Positions 40,498 through 45,887 of a stretch of 62,747 nt of DNA are shown one piece after another. The notes under the pieces are model-generated. The model made no database searches. It was not told the origin of the DNA and was given only the letters and a program-made list of their open reading frames with translations. Numbering within the stretch: position 1 is the stretch's first letter; the number at the start of each line of letters is the position of its first letter. The DNA comes from Lyngbya sp. HA4199-MV5 (GTDB taxonomy: Bacteria > Cyanobacteriota > Cyanobacteriia > Leptolyngbyales > Leptolyngbyaceae), in assembly GCA_019359375.1 (NCBI GenBank), contig JAHHHL010000039.1, positions 1 to 62,747 on the forward strand. The letters are read 5' to 3'. Both the position numbers and the translations under genes were made by a program.

Positions 40498-40716
40498 ATG
40501 GCTGTTGAAAAAGTAAACTCCTCCTCTAGCTTGGCTGAAGTGGTCGATCGCATTTTGGACAAAGGTATCGTGATTGATGCTTGGGTTCGTGTGTCGTTGG
40601 TTGGTATTGAGCTGCTGTCGATCGAAGCACGTGTGGTGATTGCATCGGTTGAAACCTACTTGAAGTATGCCGAAGCCGTTGGTTTGACCGCTCAAGCGGC
40701 TGTTCCCGCTTCTTAG
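40498..40716 (+). CDS. gvpA: Gas vesicle major structural protein GvpA
   Basis: 72 residues with the invariant core [21 protein letters not shown] and [23 protein letters not shown]. GvpA polymerises into the ribs of the gas vesicle wall. AAAGG lies upstream of the ATG. Only one gvpA copy is present, whereas several cyanobacteria have two or more. Two hairpins follow the stop, which fits with gvpA being expressed mostly as a short transcript in excess over the rest of the cluster. Confidence 0.98.
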
Positions 40717-40880: not shown

Positions 40881-41873
40881 ATGTCTTTAAAGGATTCCTG
40901 GCAGCAGCAGAGACAGCAACGCCAGCAAGAAGTGACCCAGCGGCAGCAAACGGTTGCCGACACACTAACTGCAACTCGACAAGAACGGCAGCTCAAAGCA
41001 GCTCAACTGCGTGATGAACTCAGTCTTTTTCGCGCAACATTGGCAAACGAAAGTACTGCTTACCGCACCGAACTACAGCAGTTTTGTCAACGGCTACATT
41101 TAGAAACTCAGGCATTTCTGACAGCGGCAAGCGATCGTCGCCACAAGGAAGCCACGCAACTTAATCAGACGCTTGATGCCTTTGTACAAAAGCTGCGGCA
41201 GCAAACCGTCACCTTTTTGGCGACAACGCAGGTAGAACGCACCGAAGCCGCCTATCGCGTGGAGCAAGAACTGGTGGCGTTTGTGGATGCCTTGCGTTCT
41301 GACGTGCAAAGCTACCTGATCGAACTCGAAGCCGTGCGCTATCAGCGTGCTGTGCAACTCAATCAGACACTTTTGGACAATCGCGCTAAGCGAGAAGCAG
41401 AAACCCAGGCACTTTTTCAGCGCCTTGCCGTTTTTCGATCAGAGCTACAGCGGTTTTCTCAAGATCTTCACCAAACGGTCTGGGGGGGTGATTGTGCGGT
41501 TAGAGCGGAAGCACCCATCGCTAAGCCACAGCCTGTTAAACCGAGCACCAAACCCATTGGTCGTGTTTCGGTGCAGCCAAATGGCACGGTTGCGGTTACA
41601 AGCACTGTTGGCGCGTTTCAGAACGGTCATTCGGTCGCGGTCGTGCCGCCTGCAAAAGCCGCTAAGGCAGCACCATCAGACGTAATCGCTCATGAGAAAG
41701 AGGTTTACGCCCACATTCACACCGTCCAGGGCGCACGCTTAACCGAGATCGAAGCCGCTTTAGGGATCAACCGTTTCCAGACAGTCGATGCCCTGCGATC
41801 GCTGATCAAAAAAGGCTTAATCACCCAGCGCGATCGCATTTATCTTGCTCAAGAACATCTTGCCCATACGTGA
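40881..41873 (+). CDS. gvpC: Gas vesicle outer protein GvpC with extra C-terminal winged-helix-like domain
   Basis: 330 residues from the ATG at 40881 (AAGGAG upstream). Residues 44-175 are four 33-residue repeats of the GvpC type, for example starting QAFLTAASDRRHKEATQLNQ and VTFLATTQVERTEAAYRVEQ, with a partial fifth to ~203. GvpC binds the outside of the rib wall and strengthens it. A Pro/Val/Lys-rich linker (~204-271) leads to a 59-residue C-terminal domain (EKEVYAHIHTVQGARLTEIE...GLITQRDRIYLA) that is not part of the repeat module. This domain is related to the C-terminus of GvpN encoded next door. Length is well above typical GvpC (~190 residues in Anabaena). Confidence 0.92.
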   Translation: MSLKDSWQQQRQQRQQEVTQRQQTVADTLTATRQERQLKAAQLRDELSLFRATLANESTAYRTELQQFCQRLHLETQAFLTAASDRRHKEATQLNQTLDAFVQKLRQQTVTFLATTQVERTEAAYRVEQELVAFVDALRSDVQSYLIELEAVRYQRAVQLNQTLLDNRAKREAETQALFQRLAVFRSELQRFSQDLHQTVWGGDCAVRAEAPIAKPQPVKPSTKPIGRVSVQPNGTVAVTSTVGAFQNGHSVAVVPPAKAAKAAPSDVIAHEKEVYAHIHTVQGARLTEIEAALGINRFQTVDALRSLIKKGLITQRDRIYLAQEHLAHT

Positions 41874-41875
41874 AG

Positions 41876-42033
41876 ACTAGGGAGTAGGCAGAGGGCAGAG
41901 GGCAGAGGGCAGAGGGCAGGGGGCAGAAGGCTAAGTTTTTATACTTCATCCTTCATCCTTTCCTCCTCACTCTTGACTCAAAACTCAAAACCTTTACCCC
42001 TCACTTCTCACTCCTCACCCCCTACCCCCCACA
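41876..42033. repeat. Heptanucleotide repeat block between gvpC and gvpN
   Basis: Purine half AGAGGGC (x5) and GGCAGAA, then pyrimidine half TTCATCC, CTCAAAA and CCTCACT/CCCTACC. The halves are partly complementary. Confidence 0.85.
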
Positions 42034-42044
42034 GAGGTTAACCC

Positions 42045-43460
42045 GTGACGACCATCCTTCGTGCCAGCCCCCGCCGCTTCGTCAGCACCCCCGCTGTTGA
42101 GCGAGTGGCAAATCGTGCCCTCCGCTACTTGCAATCTGGTTATTCTGTCCATCTGCGTGGTCCGGCTGGAACGGGCAAAACGACGCTGGCTCTTCATTTA
42201 GCGGACCTGCTTGCCCGTCCTTTGATGCTGATTTTCGGCGACGATGAGTTCAAAACCTCAGACCTGATTGGCAACCAGTCGGGCTACACGCGCAAAAAGG
42301 TGGTGGATAACTACATCCATAGCGTGGTTAAGGTAGAAGACGAACTACGGCAGAACTGGGTCGATTCACGCCTGACACTTGCCTGTCGGGAAGGGTTTAC
42401 GCTGGTGTACGACGAGTTCAACCGATCGCGCCCAGAGGTCAATAACGTCCTGCTGTCGGCGCTCGAAGAAAAGCTGCTCGTGCTGCCACCCAGCAACAAC
42501 CGCAGCGAGTACATTCGCGTGAGTCCTCATTTCCGCGCGATTTTTACCTCAAACCCCGAAGAATATTGCGGCGTTCATGCGACCCAGGATGCACTGATGG
42601 ATCGTCTGGTGACGATTAACATGCCTGAACCGGATGAATTGACCCAGCAAGAAATTTTGGTGCAAAAAACGGAGGTCGATCGCGCCAGTGCCCTACTCAT
42701 CGTGCGGCTCGTCAAAGAGTTCCGCATTCGCACCAACAATGAGAAATCGTCCGGTTTGCGTTCTTGCTTGATGTTAGGCAAGGTCTGCCACGACCATGAG
42801 ATTGTGGCATCCCCTGGAAACGCTGACTTCCGAGACATCTGCTTTGATGTGCTGCTGTCACGCTCCAATTTACCGCTGGCAAAAACAACCAAAATTCTGT
42901 GGGACTTGCTCAACGATGCGATCGGCATTGGCTTAGTCGAAGCTGAACCGAATGAGCCAGAACTGAATCATTCGCTCTATGATGCGGCGATCGCGCAAAC
43001 TGAGGTCGCAGACGCGCAAACAGAAGCGATCAGCGAAGCCCTGGCAGCACTGGCTTTAGAAGCGGTCATGACGGAACCTGATACTGATCCGATCGACGAT
43101 GAAGCAAGCACTTTAGAACCTGCACCGTCCGCAGCTATGGAGATGCCTGAAGCTGTAGCAACGCCTGAAGCTGTAGAGTGTGATGAATCGTCAAAAACGC
43201 CTGCATTGGTAGACAACACAGAGCCAGAGATTCCCGCCGAGCCAGAAATGCCCTCTGCTTCAAAAGTTCCCTCTGAGCCAGAAATTCCTTACGAGCAAGA
43301 GATCATTGCTTACCTCAAGCGCATGAATGGGGCGCGGCTCTCCCAGATTGAACACGCGCTGGAACTCGATCGCTTCCGTACAGTCGATGTCCTGCGCTTG
43401 CTGGCAGAAAAAGGTAGCGTCATGCTGCGCGATCGGCTCTATCTCTCCACAGAAGGTTAA
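42045..43460 (+). CDS. gvpN: Gas vesicle assembly ATPase GvpN with C-terminal winged-helix-like domain
   Basis: 471 residues, GTG start at 42045 with AGAGG upstream. The AAA+ module (MoxR/CbbQ group) has Walker A GPAGTGKT (39-46), Walker [13 protein letters not shown] (near 117-128) and a sensor region [12 protein letters not shown]. GvpN is needed for full-size vesicle assembly. After the AAA+ part (~to 310) comes an acidic Pro/Glu/Ala linker (repeated EPEIP-type words), then residues 417-471, [20 protein letters not shown]...[10 protein letters not shown], homologous to the C-terminus of GvpC. Typical GvpN is near 300-350 residues, so the tail is an addition. gvpJ starts four bases after the stop. 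Confidence 0.95.
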
Positions 43461-43463
43461 CCC

Positions 43464-43829
43464 ATGACTGCCGCCATTCCCACCAAAGCCTACCCCTCGG
43501 CTCCCCTCTCGACCAAAGACTCTGCGCGATCGATTTCCACCTCTACAGCAGGCTCTACGCTGGCAGATGTGCTTGAACGCGTCCTCGACAAAGGCATCGT
43601 CATTGCAGGCGATATTTCCGTCTCGGTTGCCACTACGGAACTGCTCAACATCCGCATCCGCCTGCTCATCGCCTCTGTGGATAAAGCCAAAGAAATGGGC
43701 ATCAACTGGTGGGAGAATAATCCCCACTTCAGCGCCCAATCTCAAAGCCTGATCGAAGCAAACCAGCAGTTGATGCAACGGGTGGAAAGTCTGGAGTCAG
43801 AATTGCGATCGCTGCGATCGGCGGGTTAG
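43464..43829 (+). CDS. gvpJ: Gas vesicle protein GvpJ
   Basis: 121 residues. The core TLADVLERVLDKGIVIAGDI and ISVATTELLNIRIRLLIASV-like stretch is a GvpA-family fold, preceded by a ~28-residue Ser/Pro/Thr-rich lead and followed by a coiled-coil tail (NQQLMQRVESLESELRSLRS). GvpJ is a minor GvpA-related protein thought to act in nucleation or tip assembly. It is tightly linked to gvpN. A repeat block follows. Confidence 0.95.
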   Translation: MTAAIPTKAYPSAPLSTKDSARSISTSTAGSTLADVLERVLDKGIVIAGDISVSVATTELLNIRIRLLIASVDKAKEMGINWWENNPHFSAQSQSLIEANQQLMQRVESLESELRSLRSAG

Positions 43830-44097: not shown

Positions 44098-44559
44098 GTG
44101 ACCGCTTCTGATTTCCCGCTTCAAGCCCTTTCTACCACGCCCAAAGCCAGTAAGGATGCTGGATTGGCTCCCCTTTTGCTGACGGTGGTAGAACTGGTGC
44201 GTCAACTCATGGAGGCACAGGTCATTCGGCGGATGGAAACAGGCGAACTGAGTGATGAAGACCTCGATCGCGCAGCCGAAAGCCTCCGCAAGCTAGAAGA
44301 ACAAGTCGTTGAAATCTGCGGCATCTTTGAAATTGACCCAGCAGACTTAAATATCGACCTTGGCGAAATTGGCACCCTATTACCCAAAACGGGCGGCTAC
44401 TATCCTGGCGAAAACACGGCGAATCCGACCATTCTCGAACTGCTCGATCGCCTGCTCAATACAGGAGTTGTCCTGCAAGGCAATGTTGATTTAGGTCTAG
44501 CAAACATCGACCTGATTCACGCCAAACTGCAATTAGTCCTCACCGCAAAACCGATTTAA
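44098..44559 (+). CDS. gvpK: Gas vesicle protein GvpK
   Basis: 153 residues, GTG start at 44098. Typical GvpK blocks are visible: LTVVELVRQLMEAQVIRRME, LSDEDLDRAAESLRKLEEQV and ILELLDRLLNTGVVLQGNVD. GvpK is an essential minor assembly protein. The gene is separated from gvpJ by the repeat block and lies 131 bases before gvpF. Confidence 0.96.
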   Translation: MTASDFPLQALSTTPKASKDAGLAPLLLTVVELVRQLMEAQVIRRMETGELSDEDLDRAAESLRKLEEQVVEICGIFEIDPADLNIDLGEIGTLLPKTGGYYPGENTANPTILELLDRLLNTGVVLQGNVDLGLANIDLIHAKLQLVLTAKPI

Positions 44560-44690: not shown

Positions 44691-45434
44691 ATGTCTAGCA
44701 GACTATATCTTTACGGCATTTTCCCCGCTCCCGGACCGCAGGATCTCCATCTCGAAGGCTTAGACAAGCAGCCTGTACACACCGAAATCGTTGATAACTT
44801 CACCTTTTTGTACTCAGAAGCGCAGCAAGAACGCTACCTGGCAAGTCGGCGTAACTTGTTAGGACACGAAAAAGTGCTGGAGCAGGCAATGGAAGTGGGC
44901 TATCGCACGCTATTACCGCTTCAATTTGGTCTGGTCATTGACGATTGGGCAACTGTAACCAAGCAATTAACTGCACCCTACGGTCAAGGCTTGGAGAAGC
45001 TGTTCACCAAATTGGACGGGCAGCGCGAAGTTGGCGTAAAGGTATTTTGGGAAGCCGATCGCGAACTGCAACTGCTCCTGAACGAAAACCAGAGCCTTAG
45101 AGAAAAGCGAGACAGTTTGGAAGGGCGAACGCTGGGCATGGATGAAGTGGTGTCGATCGGGCAGGCGATCGAACGCGCAATGGAAGCTCGTAAGCAAGCC
45201 ATCATCCAAACGTTTCGTGAGGCACTAAATCCGCTGGCGATCGATCGGGTTGAGAACGATACCCTCACCGAGTCAATGATTTATAACGCCGCGTATCTCA
45301 TCCCCTGGGAAACCGAGCCCGACTTTAGCCGTCACGTCGAAACCCTCGACCATCAATTCGATAGCCGCTTGAAGATTCGCTACAACAACTTCACCGCACC
45401 GTTTAACTTTGCCCAACTCGATCGACTGGAGTAG
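44691..45434 (+). CDS. gvpF: Gas vesicle protein GvpF/GvpL family
   Basis: 247 residues starting MSSRLYLYGIFPAPGPQD, with VLEQAMEVGYRTLLPLQFGLV near 66-86, GVKVFWEADRELQLLLNENQ near 118-137 and the C-terminal FSRHVETLDHQFDSRLKIRYNN region of the GvpF/L family. These proteins bind GvpA monomers and help nucleate vesicles. Only one F/L-type gene is present in the cluster. Confidence 0.95.
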   Translation: MSSRLYLYGIFPAPGPQDLHLEGLDKQPVHTEIVDNFTFLYSEAQQERYLASRRNLLGHEKVLEQAMEVGYRTLLPLQFGLVIDDWATVTKQLTAPYGQGLEKLFTKLDGQREVGVKVFWEADRELQLLLNENQSLREKRDSLEGRTLGMDEVVSIGQAIERAMEARKQAIIQTFREALNPLAIDRVENDTLTESMIYNAAYLIPWETEPDFSRHVETLDHQFDSRLKIRYNNFTAPFNFAQLDRLE

Positions 45435-45605: not shown

Positions 45606-45887
45606 ATGCTCTTCAAGCTCCTCTTTGCCCCTGTAACAGGTATTGGTTGGATTGCTGAACAAATCCAACAGCGTGCTGATGCCGAACTGGACGATACCGA
45701 AAATCTCAGCAAGCGACTGTTGGCACTGCAACTTGCCTTCGATATGGGCGACATCCCCGAAGACGAATTTGAAGTACAAGAGGAAGAATTACTGTTAGCG
45801 ATTCAAGCGCTTGAAAATAGCCAGCTTGCCGAGGCTGAAATGGAAGCGGCAGAAACAATAGAAGCGGCAGCACACCAAGTTGAGTGA
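45606..45887 (+). CDS. gvpG: Gas vesicle protein GvpG
   Basis: 93 residues with the GvpG core MLFKLLFAPVTGIGWIAEQI and a coiled-coil region with MGDIPEDEFEVQEEELLLAI. The C-terminal ~20 residues are Glu/Ala-rich. GvpG is an accessory assembly protein. It is the last plus-strand gvp gene; a 201-bp mobile element follows 43 bases after the stop. Confidence 0.92.
   Translation: MLFKLLFAPVTGIGWIAEQIQQRADAELDDTENLSKRLLALQLAFDMGDIPEDEFEVQEEELLLAIQALENSQLAEAEMEAAETIEAAAHQVE

Follow-up and report, generated by a model that had tools for sequence, protein, structure and literature searches.

Among the closest published counterparts of the proteins treated here are those of Planktothrix and Halobacterium. 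In Planktothrix, the C-terminal part of the variant GvpC40 was matched to 60 residues of Geitlerinema GvpC, and 28 of its C-terminal residues were reported in 2017 to share 64% identity with Planktothrix GvpN (PMC5259702). In the available parts of that paper, the latter match takes up one sentence and a figure line, and the legend labels the matching region as N-terminal. In Halobacterium, a globular C-terminal fragment of GvpC (aa 329-382), which carries a zinc-finger motif, self-associates in split-GFP (rf 20.7) and also binds GvpN and GvpO (rf 10-16) as well as GvpF, GvpH, GvpI and GvpL; GvpN and GvpO have been suggested to interfere with the dimerization of GvpC, and GvpL contacts both GvpC and GvpN (PMC9372576, available text). 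GvpN is needed for elongation (EMBO J 2024, PMC11445434), and the available portions of PMC11445434, PMC7204071 and PMC10185304 do not discuss a tail of GvpN. Here we describe a gas-vesicle (gvp) cluster on a 62,747-nucleotide stretch of DNA from Lyngbya sp. HA4199-MV5 (contig JAHHHL010000039.1; the whole stretch is called the window), in which sequence comparison indicates that GvpC and GvpN end in homologous tails, both predicted to fold as winged helices (Table 1).

Homologous tails in GvpC and GvpN

The last 59 residues of GvpC align without gaps to the last 55 of GvpN, with identities of 26/52 and 27/55, as had been stated (about 26 of 52) in a first-pass annotation made from the letters of the window. 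The Smith-Waterman score of tail against tail is 139, far above 5000 shuffles (mean 22.9, standard deviation 4.6, maximum 50), and BLASTP of the whole proteins gives 6e-16. A six-frame search with the GvpC tail through the 95 contigs (6.9 Mb) of the genome to which the window belongs returned the query itself at 6e-34 and the GvpN tail at 6.5e-12 (49%), and no third copy at E <= 10. An alignment score this far above the shuffles and a whole-genome search that finds just the two tails indicate that the tails are homologous and that their match is not due to chance.

The modules in front of the tails are the known ones, and a low-complexity linker precedes the tail in both proteins; this part of the annotation also held. 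The strongest period in the GvpC body by autocorrelation is 33 residues (0.234), with 51 nearly equal (0.228), and the value of 0.23 at period 33 lies above all of 500 shuffles (mean -0.47, standard deviation 0.15, maximum -0.02), consistent with the 33-residue repeats of cyanobacterial GvpC. The repeat model TIGR02641 scores 17.0 bits, just under its cut-off of 18.8; despite this, position in the cluster and relatives indicate that the gene encodes GvpC. GvpN matches TIGR02640 at 396.8 bits (4e-119, cut-off 266.8), has the Walker A motif of its AAA+ core and matches AAA_5 at 2.4e-18. In another locus (L069:8135-10420) the GvpN reading frame extends to 762 codons and a very long linker precedes the tail.

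Predicted fold of the tails

AlphaFold, supplied with a 43-tail alignment, models the GvpC tail as H-H-H-E-E, with helices at residues 272-282, 287-294 and 298-310 and strands at 314-317 and 320-323 (H5-15, H20-27, H31-43, E47-50 and E53-56 of the model) and a mean predicted local distance difference test score (pLDDT) of 90.6. The GvpN tail has the same topology (helices 417-427, 432-439 and 443-456, strands 459-462 and 465-468), with block-mean pLDDT of 91-97 in a model of a chain in which the GvpC tail was fused to GvpN by reading two in-frame intergenic stops as glycine. This chain is artificial and informs on the fold alone, not on binding; its mean pLDDT is 71 and its predicted TM-score (pTM) 0.49, and values under 50 are found in the GvpN linker (P0003 473-536), at the joint and in the AAA+ core at 197-232. 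Both models have the three helices and the following two-stranded wing of a winged helix-turn-helix, so that the tails are predicted to share the winged-helix-like fold proposed for them in the annotation; the lack of structural similarity that would have spoken against the proposal is not seen.

Foldseek returned no PDB match to the tail at E <= 0.001; many of its weaker matches are winged helices (best TM-score pair 0.85/0.90). A DALI-like aligner gave Z scores of 9.2-11.5 among the 50 matches listed, headed by 7bzh, a Sulfolobus DNA-binding protein (Z 11.5), with MarR-like regulators, Z-alpha domains, RPA32C and others at Z 9.2-10.8. RPA32C itself (4ou0) aligns over 58 residues at Z 10.1 with a root-mean-square deviation of 1.5, and an RPA32C-partner complex (4mqv) reaches Z 9.6. 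Such likeness of fold says nothing on function; transcription factors and Z-DNA binders score like RPA32C. RPA32C sits on a flexible linker and recruits proteins. Like the tails it is a C-terminal winged helix; it differs in having no significant sequence kinship to them, its family PF08784 reaching at most E 0.023 (15.9 bits, cut-off 22.6) in the relative L177 and giving no match in the window up to E 1.

The best PDB sequence match to the tail has E 0.009, and the tails of the window stay under the curated cut-off of every Pfam and NCBIfam family listed. TrmB (PF01978), which scores 23.6 bits on the GvpC tail and 14.9 on the GvpN tail (cut-off 25.6), is the commonest weak Pfam match, with hits at E <= 0.01 in 31 of the 43 tails and a best value of 2.2e-9. 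Winged helices of the TrmB and MarR type share the fold and a weak profile likeness with the tails; unlike them, the tails of the window remain below curated cut-offs and are fused to gas-vesicle proteins.

GvpC of Halobacterium (L169:2167-3315, on pNRC100) likewise carries, behind its repeats, a small globular end domain whose type is known from DNA binding and which, according to the available text cited above, self-associates and binds GvpN. Its residues 317-371 match ROS_MUCR at 28.3 bits, above the Pfam cut-off of 25.4, whereas window GvpC has no match to this family up to E 1; the archaeal domain is a zinc finger of the ROS_MUCR type rather than a winged helix, and the tail profile is silent in this cluster, GvpN included. 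In Planktothrix, too, it is GvpC and GvpN that bear this kind of tail; the available parts of that paper give the match alone, without domain, fold, distribution or function. In the open-access literature we found no description of a winged-helix tail of GvpC or GvpN, most subscription papers lying outside the scope of the search. The tail is a real conserved domain common to two gas-vesicle proteins and, within the range of these searches, little treated in print.

Distribution in gas-vesicle clusters

With the GvpC tail of the window as query, the tail was found in 75 of 194 relatives at E <= 0.01. We drew 388 genomes evenly from the class and screened them for GvpN at E <= 1e-50 and with a tail profile at E <= 0.001; 175 of them have GvpN and 123 a tail match. 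There is a tail match in 117 of the 175 GvpN genomes (one of them, in G313, is a broken relic with two in-frame stops) and none in the other 58. Six genomes without GvpN (G041, G056, G076, G278, G284 and G338) match weakly, at E 1.3e-4 to 6.5e-4, and nowhere in the draw does a strong match occur without GvpN. At least two matches are present in 91 of the 123 genomes, and a single match in 26 GvpN genomes. No match outside gvp was better than E 2e-5 in 11 re-examined genomes, including the six without GvpN, or better than 1e-4 in the ten Planktothrix-like genomes discussed below.

The strong matches that were inspected are confined to GvpC and GvpN, and the profile search proposed in the first-pass annotation thus places the domain, at strong score, in the gas-vesicle system only. 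A third strong match in G293 belongs to a displaced GvpC-like protein (L112:5867-6592, family code f32) about 5 kb downstream of gvpN, with a GvpC match of merely E 8e-4, so the tail follows GvpC and not the genomic place. One Halobacterium and three proteobacterial plasmid gvp clusters gave nothing better than E 1.4. The annotation had named a tail that is a standard part of all GvpN as a reason to abandon its idea; this does not apply, since the tail falls outside the TIGR02640 model, a third of the sampled GvpN genomes (58/175) do without it, and the non-cyanobacterial clusters tested have none.

Losses and relics of the tails

From 151 GvpN rows we kept 107 distinct clusters in which the end of GvpN was intact and a GvpC was recognized, dropping rows that were cut by locus ends, had no recognized GvpC or core, or repeated a core. 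Both tails are present in 60 clusters, the GvpC tail alone in 12, the GvpN tail alone in 16 and neither in 19; the loci come mostly from searches seeded with the window proteins, and these fractions are not population estimates. A single tail is thus found in 28 of 107 clusters, including L075, which was counted as GvpC-alone although its GvpN tail is frameshifted and which was excluded from the tree. The raw association between the tails is largely due to shared ancestry. On a GvpN-core tree (106 rows with both traits and 7 that lack GvpC) we count 4 changes for the GvpC tail and 14 for the GvpN tail, and independent pairs reveal no linked changes, the pairs being too few for significance.

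Thirty-one rows form a clade (SH-aLRT 99; Nostocales, some Oscillatoriales and G265, which we took for Microcystis-like) that has no GvpC tail throughout and has lost the GvpN tail in 18 rows. When only losses are counted, the GvpC tail was lost 5 times (this clade and four single rows) and the GvpN tail 15 times, 6 with and 9 without the GvpC tail. The rate of GvpN-tail loss is 3.16 without the GvpC tail vs 0.53 with it, about six-fold (likelihood ratio 11.3, p 8e-4); p is 0.0012 when gains are allowed, and a FastTree tree gives a likelihood ratio of 12.7 (p 4e-4). Among clades of 15-55 tips, none surpasses the likelihood ratio of the 31-row clade or its nested parts.

Relics of the GvpN tail lie downstream of the GvpN stop in 11 of the 19 neither-tail clusters at E < 0.05 (8 of 19 below 1e-5), with a stop inside the aligned part in 7 of the 11. 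No relic was found in 11 GvpC-alone clusters (L075 apart), in 35 stretches after tail-less GvpC or, on reversal, in any of the 66 stretches searched. The lineages that bear relics therefore once had a GvpN tail. Among Nostocales, such relics follow gvpN in L094, L109 and L102-L107, and GvpN of L094 and L109 ends in the stub DKEVYNH.

A tree in which the GvpC tails are grouped is not rejected and outscores the free tree (p-AU 0.78, approximately unbiased test). The data fit a single ancient copying between neighboring genes, after which the tails were lost separately several times. This result leaves no need for repeated gene conversion between the tails, though a quick tree taken alone shows 7 switches. 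Three genomes have two gvp clusters each: G406 (L149, L150), G635 (L174/L183) and G637 (L175/L184). In all three, one cluster has both tails and the other combines a short tail-less GvpC with a divergent GvpN tail.

Constraint on the tails

The ratio of nonsynonymous to synonymous substitution rates (dN/dS), taken over close and non-independent pairs, is 0.088 for GvpC tails in clusters with both tails and 0.104 where GvpC alone has one (4 pairs). The corresponding values for GvpN tails are 0.136 and 0.159 (median 0.20, 22 non-independent pairs), and the GvpN core lies at 0.03-0.05. The low dN/dS of the lone tails implies that each tail is kept by selection even without the other. Third helix and wing form a face that is almost invariant among GvpC tails and less strictly kept among GvpN tails (Gln300 97% vs 56%, Asp303 92% vs 39%, Arg306 94% vs 62%, Arg319 95% vs 66%), and Arg298 is near-fixed in both (100% in GvpC tails, 94% in GvpN tails). 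Mean net charge is about zero over 68 GvpC and 74 GvpN tails.

Planktothrix-like genomes provide what amounts to a natural tail-deletion experiment (L178, L179 and L185 vs L177). Ten genomes of the genus of G321 were compared, and in two of them, G399 and G631, GvpC has 240 residues and no tail next to an intact GvpN tail. An alignment to a relative shows that the linker and nearly the entire tail are missing from this GvpC, whose repeat part is kept, as are both edges. The calculated GvpC masses of L177 (39.52 kDa) and L178 (28.57 kDa) match the 39.5 and 28.6 kDa variants GvpC40 and GvpC28 of Planktothrix (PMC5259702), which suggests that the genus is Planktothrix-like. The available text of that paper reports GvpC40 in all of the non-planktic strains that it covers. 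G631 has two gvpN copies of equal score, L178 and L185, about 6 kb apart, each preceded by a short GvpC.

Cluster layout and search for a partner gene

The genes after gvpN in the window follow the order J-K-F-G, identical to that of the close relative L032 (Table 1). We compared loci with 5 kb downstream of gvpN, 26 without and 28 with the GvpC tail. A GvpW-like gene lies near gvpN in 26/26 clusters without the GvpC tail and in 0/28 with it; GvpF is found there in 26/26 vs 10/28 and GvpG in 25/26 vs 9/28. Genome-wide, GvpF is present in 69/69 genomes and the GvpW-like gene in 67/69, whatever the tail state. This near-universal presence means that the layouts differ in gene order and not by a missing partner, and GvpW or GvpF as a substitute for the tail was rejected on the same ground. 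No partner gene was found that co-occurs with the tails among GvpF and the GvpW-like gene, checked genome-wide, and GvpG, checked near gvpN only. In the genome of the window the GvpW-like gene lies on a separate contig (G000:C80:45361-46026), and none is found in the window from 45888 onward.

Table 1. Coordinates of the gas-vesicle genes of the window and of the parts of GvpC and GvpN
Feature	Position	Strand	Basis
gvpA, shell protein, first in the gvp cluster	40498..40716	+	open reading frame (ORF); assigned by its GvpA sequence
gvpC, 330 aa, between gvpA and gvpN	40881..41873	+	ORF, translation
GvpC, four 33-residue segments, residues 40-171	40998..41393	+	autocorrelation; phase chosen by us
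GvpC linker, ~residues 205-268, Pro/Ala/Lys-rich	41493..41684	+	sequence
GvpC tail, predicted winged helix, residues 272-330	41694..41870	+	genome search, alignment, AlphaFold mean pLDDT 90.6
gvpN, 471 aa, GTG start	42045..43460	+	ORF, translation
GvpN AAA+ core, residues 12-273, Walker A GPAGTGKT	42078..42863	+	TIGR02640, AAA_5
GvpN linker, residues 346-409, disordered, acidic, Pro/Glu-rich	43080..43271	+	pLDDT < 50
GvpN tail, predicted winged helix, residues 417-471	43293..43457	+	alignment; block-mean pLDDT 91-97
gvpJ, next cluster gene after gvpN	43464..43829	+	ORF; order as in L032
gvpK	44098..44559	+	ORF; order as in L032
gvpF/L	44691..45434	+	ORF; order as in L032
gvpG	45606..45887	+	ORF; order as in L032

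Possible function of the tails

We tentatively favor, at a probability of about 0.4, a role of the tail as a tethered protein-recruiting or self-association module that serves mainly GvpC, with GvpN as a facultative sharer. This reading draws on the winged-helix models, the likeness to RPA32C, the neutral charge and the conservation of the GvpC-tail face, and also on the dN/dS values, the faster loss of the GvpN tail in the absence of the GvpC tail and the precedent of Halobacterium GvpC. The tail would act as a tethered protein-binding adaptor in the manner of RPA32C and not as the business end of a transcription factor. GvpC would be its main user, and its tail could link GvpC rods together or keep assembly factors on the surface of the vesicle during rib covering. 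The copy on GvpN would be auxiliary and may let the ATPase sit on, or compete for, GvpC-tail sites during elongation; it may also have some use of its own, such as contacts of GvpN with itself or with accessory Gvp proteins. The tail seems to be dispensable in some free-floating lineages.

Several results weigh against this role as a recruiting module centered on GvpC. GvpN tails are under purifying selection where GvpC has no tail (dN/dS 0.16), and once GvpN core and GvpC body are accounted for, the distances of the two tails show no further correlation over 58 loci (partial r 0.03, p 0.33). The loss-rate signal is largely one event, given that the 31-row clade or its nested parts yield the top likelihood ratio, and another property of this clade could be the cause. 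Elsewhere, three of the four single GvpC-tail losses keep the GvpN tail (L113, L114 and L140; it is lost in L133), as do the two Planktothrix-like genomes with the deletion, which stand outside the loss-rate test. A planktic GvpC28 strain and a benthic GvpC40 strain are reported, in the available text of PMC5259702, to be alike in aerotope abundance and size, and the tail is therefore dispensable there for bulk vesicle formation. Finally, the near-neutral charge and the fold similarity are also compatible with DNA binding.

In one alternative, the two tails have a third protein as their common ligand, either GvpA or an accessory Gvp, and do not bind each other. Two proteins of one system use the domain, each tail persists and stays constrained without the other, and the strongly conserved face of the GvpC tail suggests a strongly conserved ligand; in Halobacterium, GvpL has such contacts with both GvpC and GvpN (PMC9372576, available text). 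However, no partner gene was found to track the tails, GvpF and the GvpW-like gene being nearly universal whatever the tail state, and the faces of the two tails are unequally conserved. We regard a common partner as unlikely, if still a serious candidate.

To much the same degree we doubt that the tails are winged helices binding DNA or RNA, with which GvpC and GvpN, as long as they are unassembled, would bind gvp DNA and report the state of assembly to transcription, or which would tether the vesicle to the nucleoid. The third helix and the wing, which make up the conserved face of the GvpC tail, are the usual DNA-binding face of winged helices. Many of the fold neighbors are DNA-binding winged helix-turn-helix proteins (7bzh, MarR, Z-alpha), TrmB leads the weak Pfam matches, and the Halobacterium GvpC end scores above the cut-off for a zinc finger of transcription regulators. 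Against this stand the mean net charge of about zero, the aspartate (Asp303) that 92% of GvpC tails carry at a recognition-helix position, and the scores of the window tails, none of which reaches the curated cut-off of a listed family. No palindrome was evident by eye in the conserved blocks upstream of gvpA when the window was aligned with four relatives. Z-alpha ranks high by fold, and its key Asn and Tyr do not appear at the matching positions of the tails.

A further scheme is a shared sensing module. Tails of unassembled GvpC and GvpN would engage nucleic acid or each other, rib covering would sequester them, and assembly would in this way feed back on gvp expression or GvpC polymerization; the archaeal GvpC would have converged on the same solution by means of a ROS/MucR-type zinc finger. 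We consider this scheme quite unlikely.

An obligate interaction in which the GvpC tail docks on that of GvpN appears more doubtful still. The joint presence of both tails in 60 of 107 clusters, the faster GvpN-tail loss in the clade without the GvpC tail and the published GvpC-GvpN binding in Halobacterium (PMC9372576, available text) are in its favor. However, 28 of 107 clusters have a single tail, no linked changes were seen on the tree (with too few pairs for significance), the excess distance correlation is absent, both lone tails are under purifying selection, and the Planktothrix-like deletion of the GvpC tail lies beside an intact GvpN tail. What remains of the matching tails put forward in the first-pass annotation is that homologous winged helices, as predicted, were added to both proteins; the suggestion that they dock on each other finds no support, as worded there, in view of the single-tail clusters, the partial r of 0.03 and the constraint on lone tails. 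A looser link between the two tails remains in the roughly six-fold faster loss of the GvpN tail, though this is a one-clade signal. An old fusion kept by inertia, with little or no present function, could account for the repeated losses of both tails and for the relics, yet is highly improbable in view of the purifying selection on both tails and the near-fixed residues of the GvpC tail.

The tail may bear on how GvpC is loaded and on what GvpN does in vesicle assembly. No intact tail occurs in the Dolichospermum loci examined, several of which keep a GvpN relic, or in the Halobacterium cluster tested; relatives of the classical model organisms would thus not have brought it to light. If the tail does recruit partners, it could offer a handle for engineering vesicle surfaces for ultrasound imaging. 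In many cyanobacteria, its role may well be to recruit partners during the building of the vesicle.

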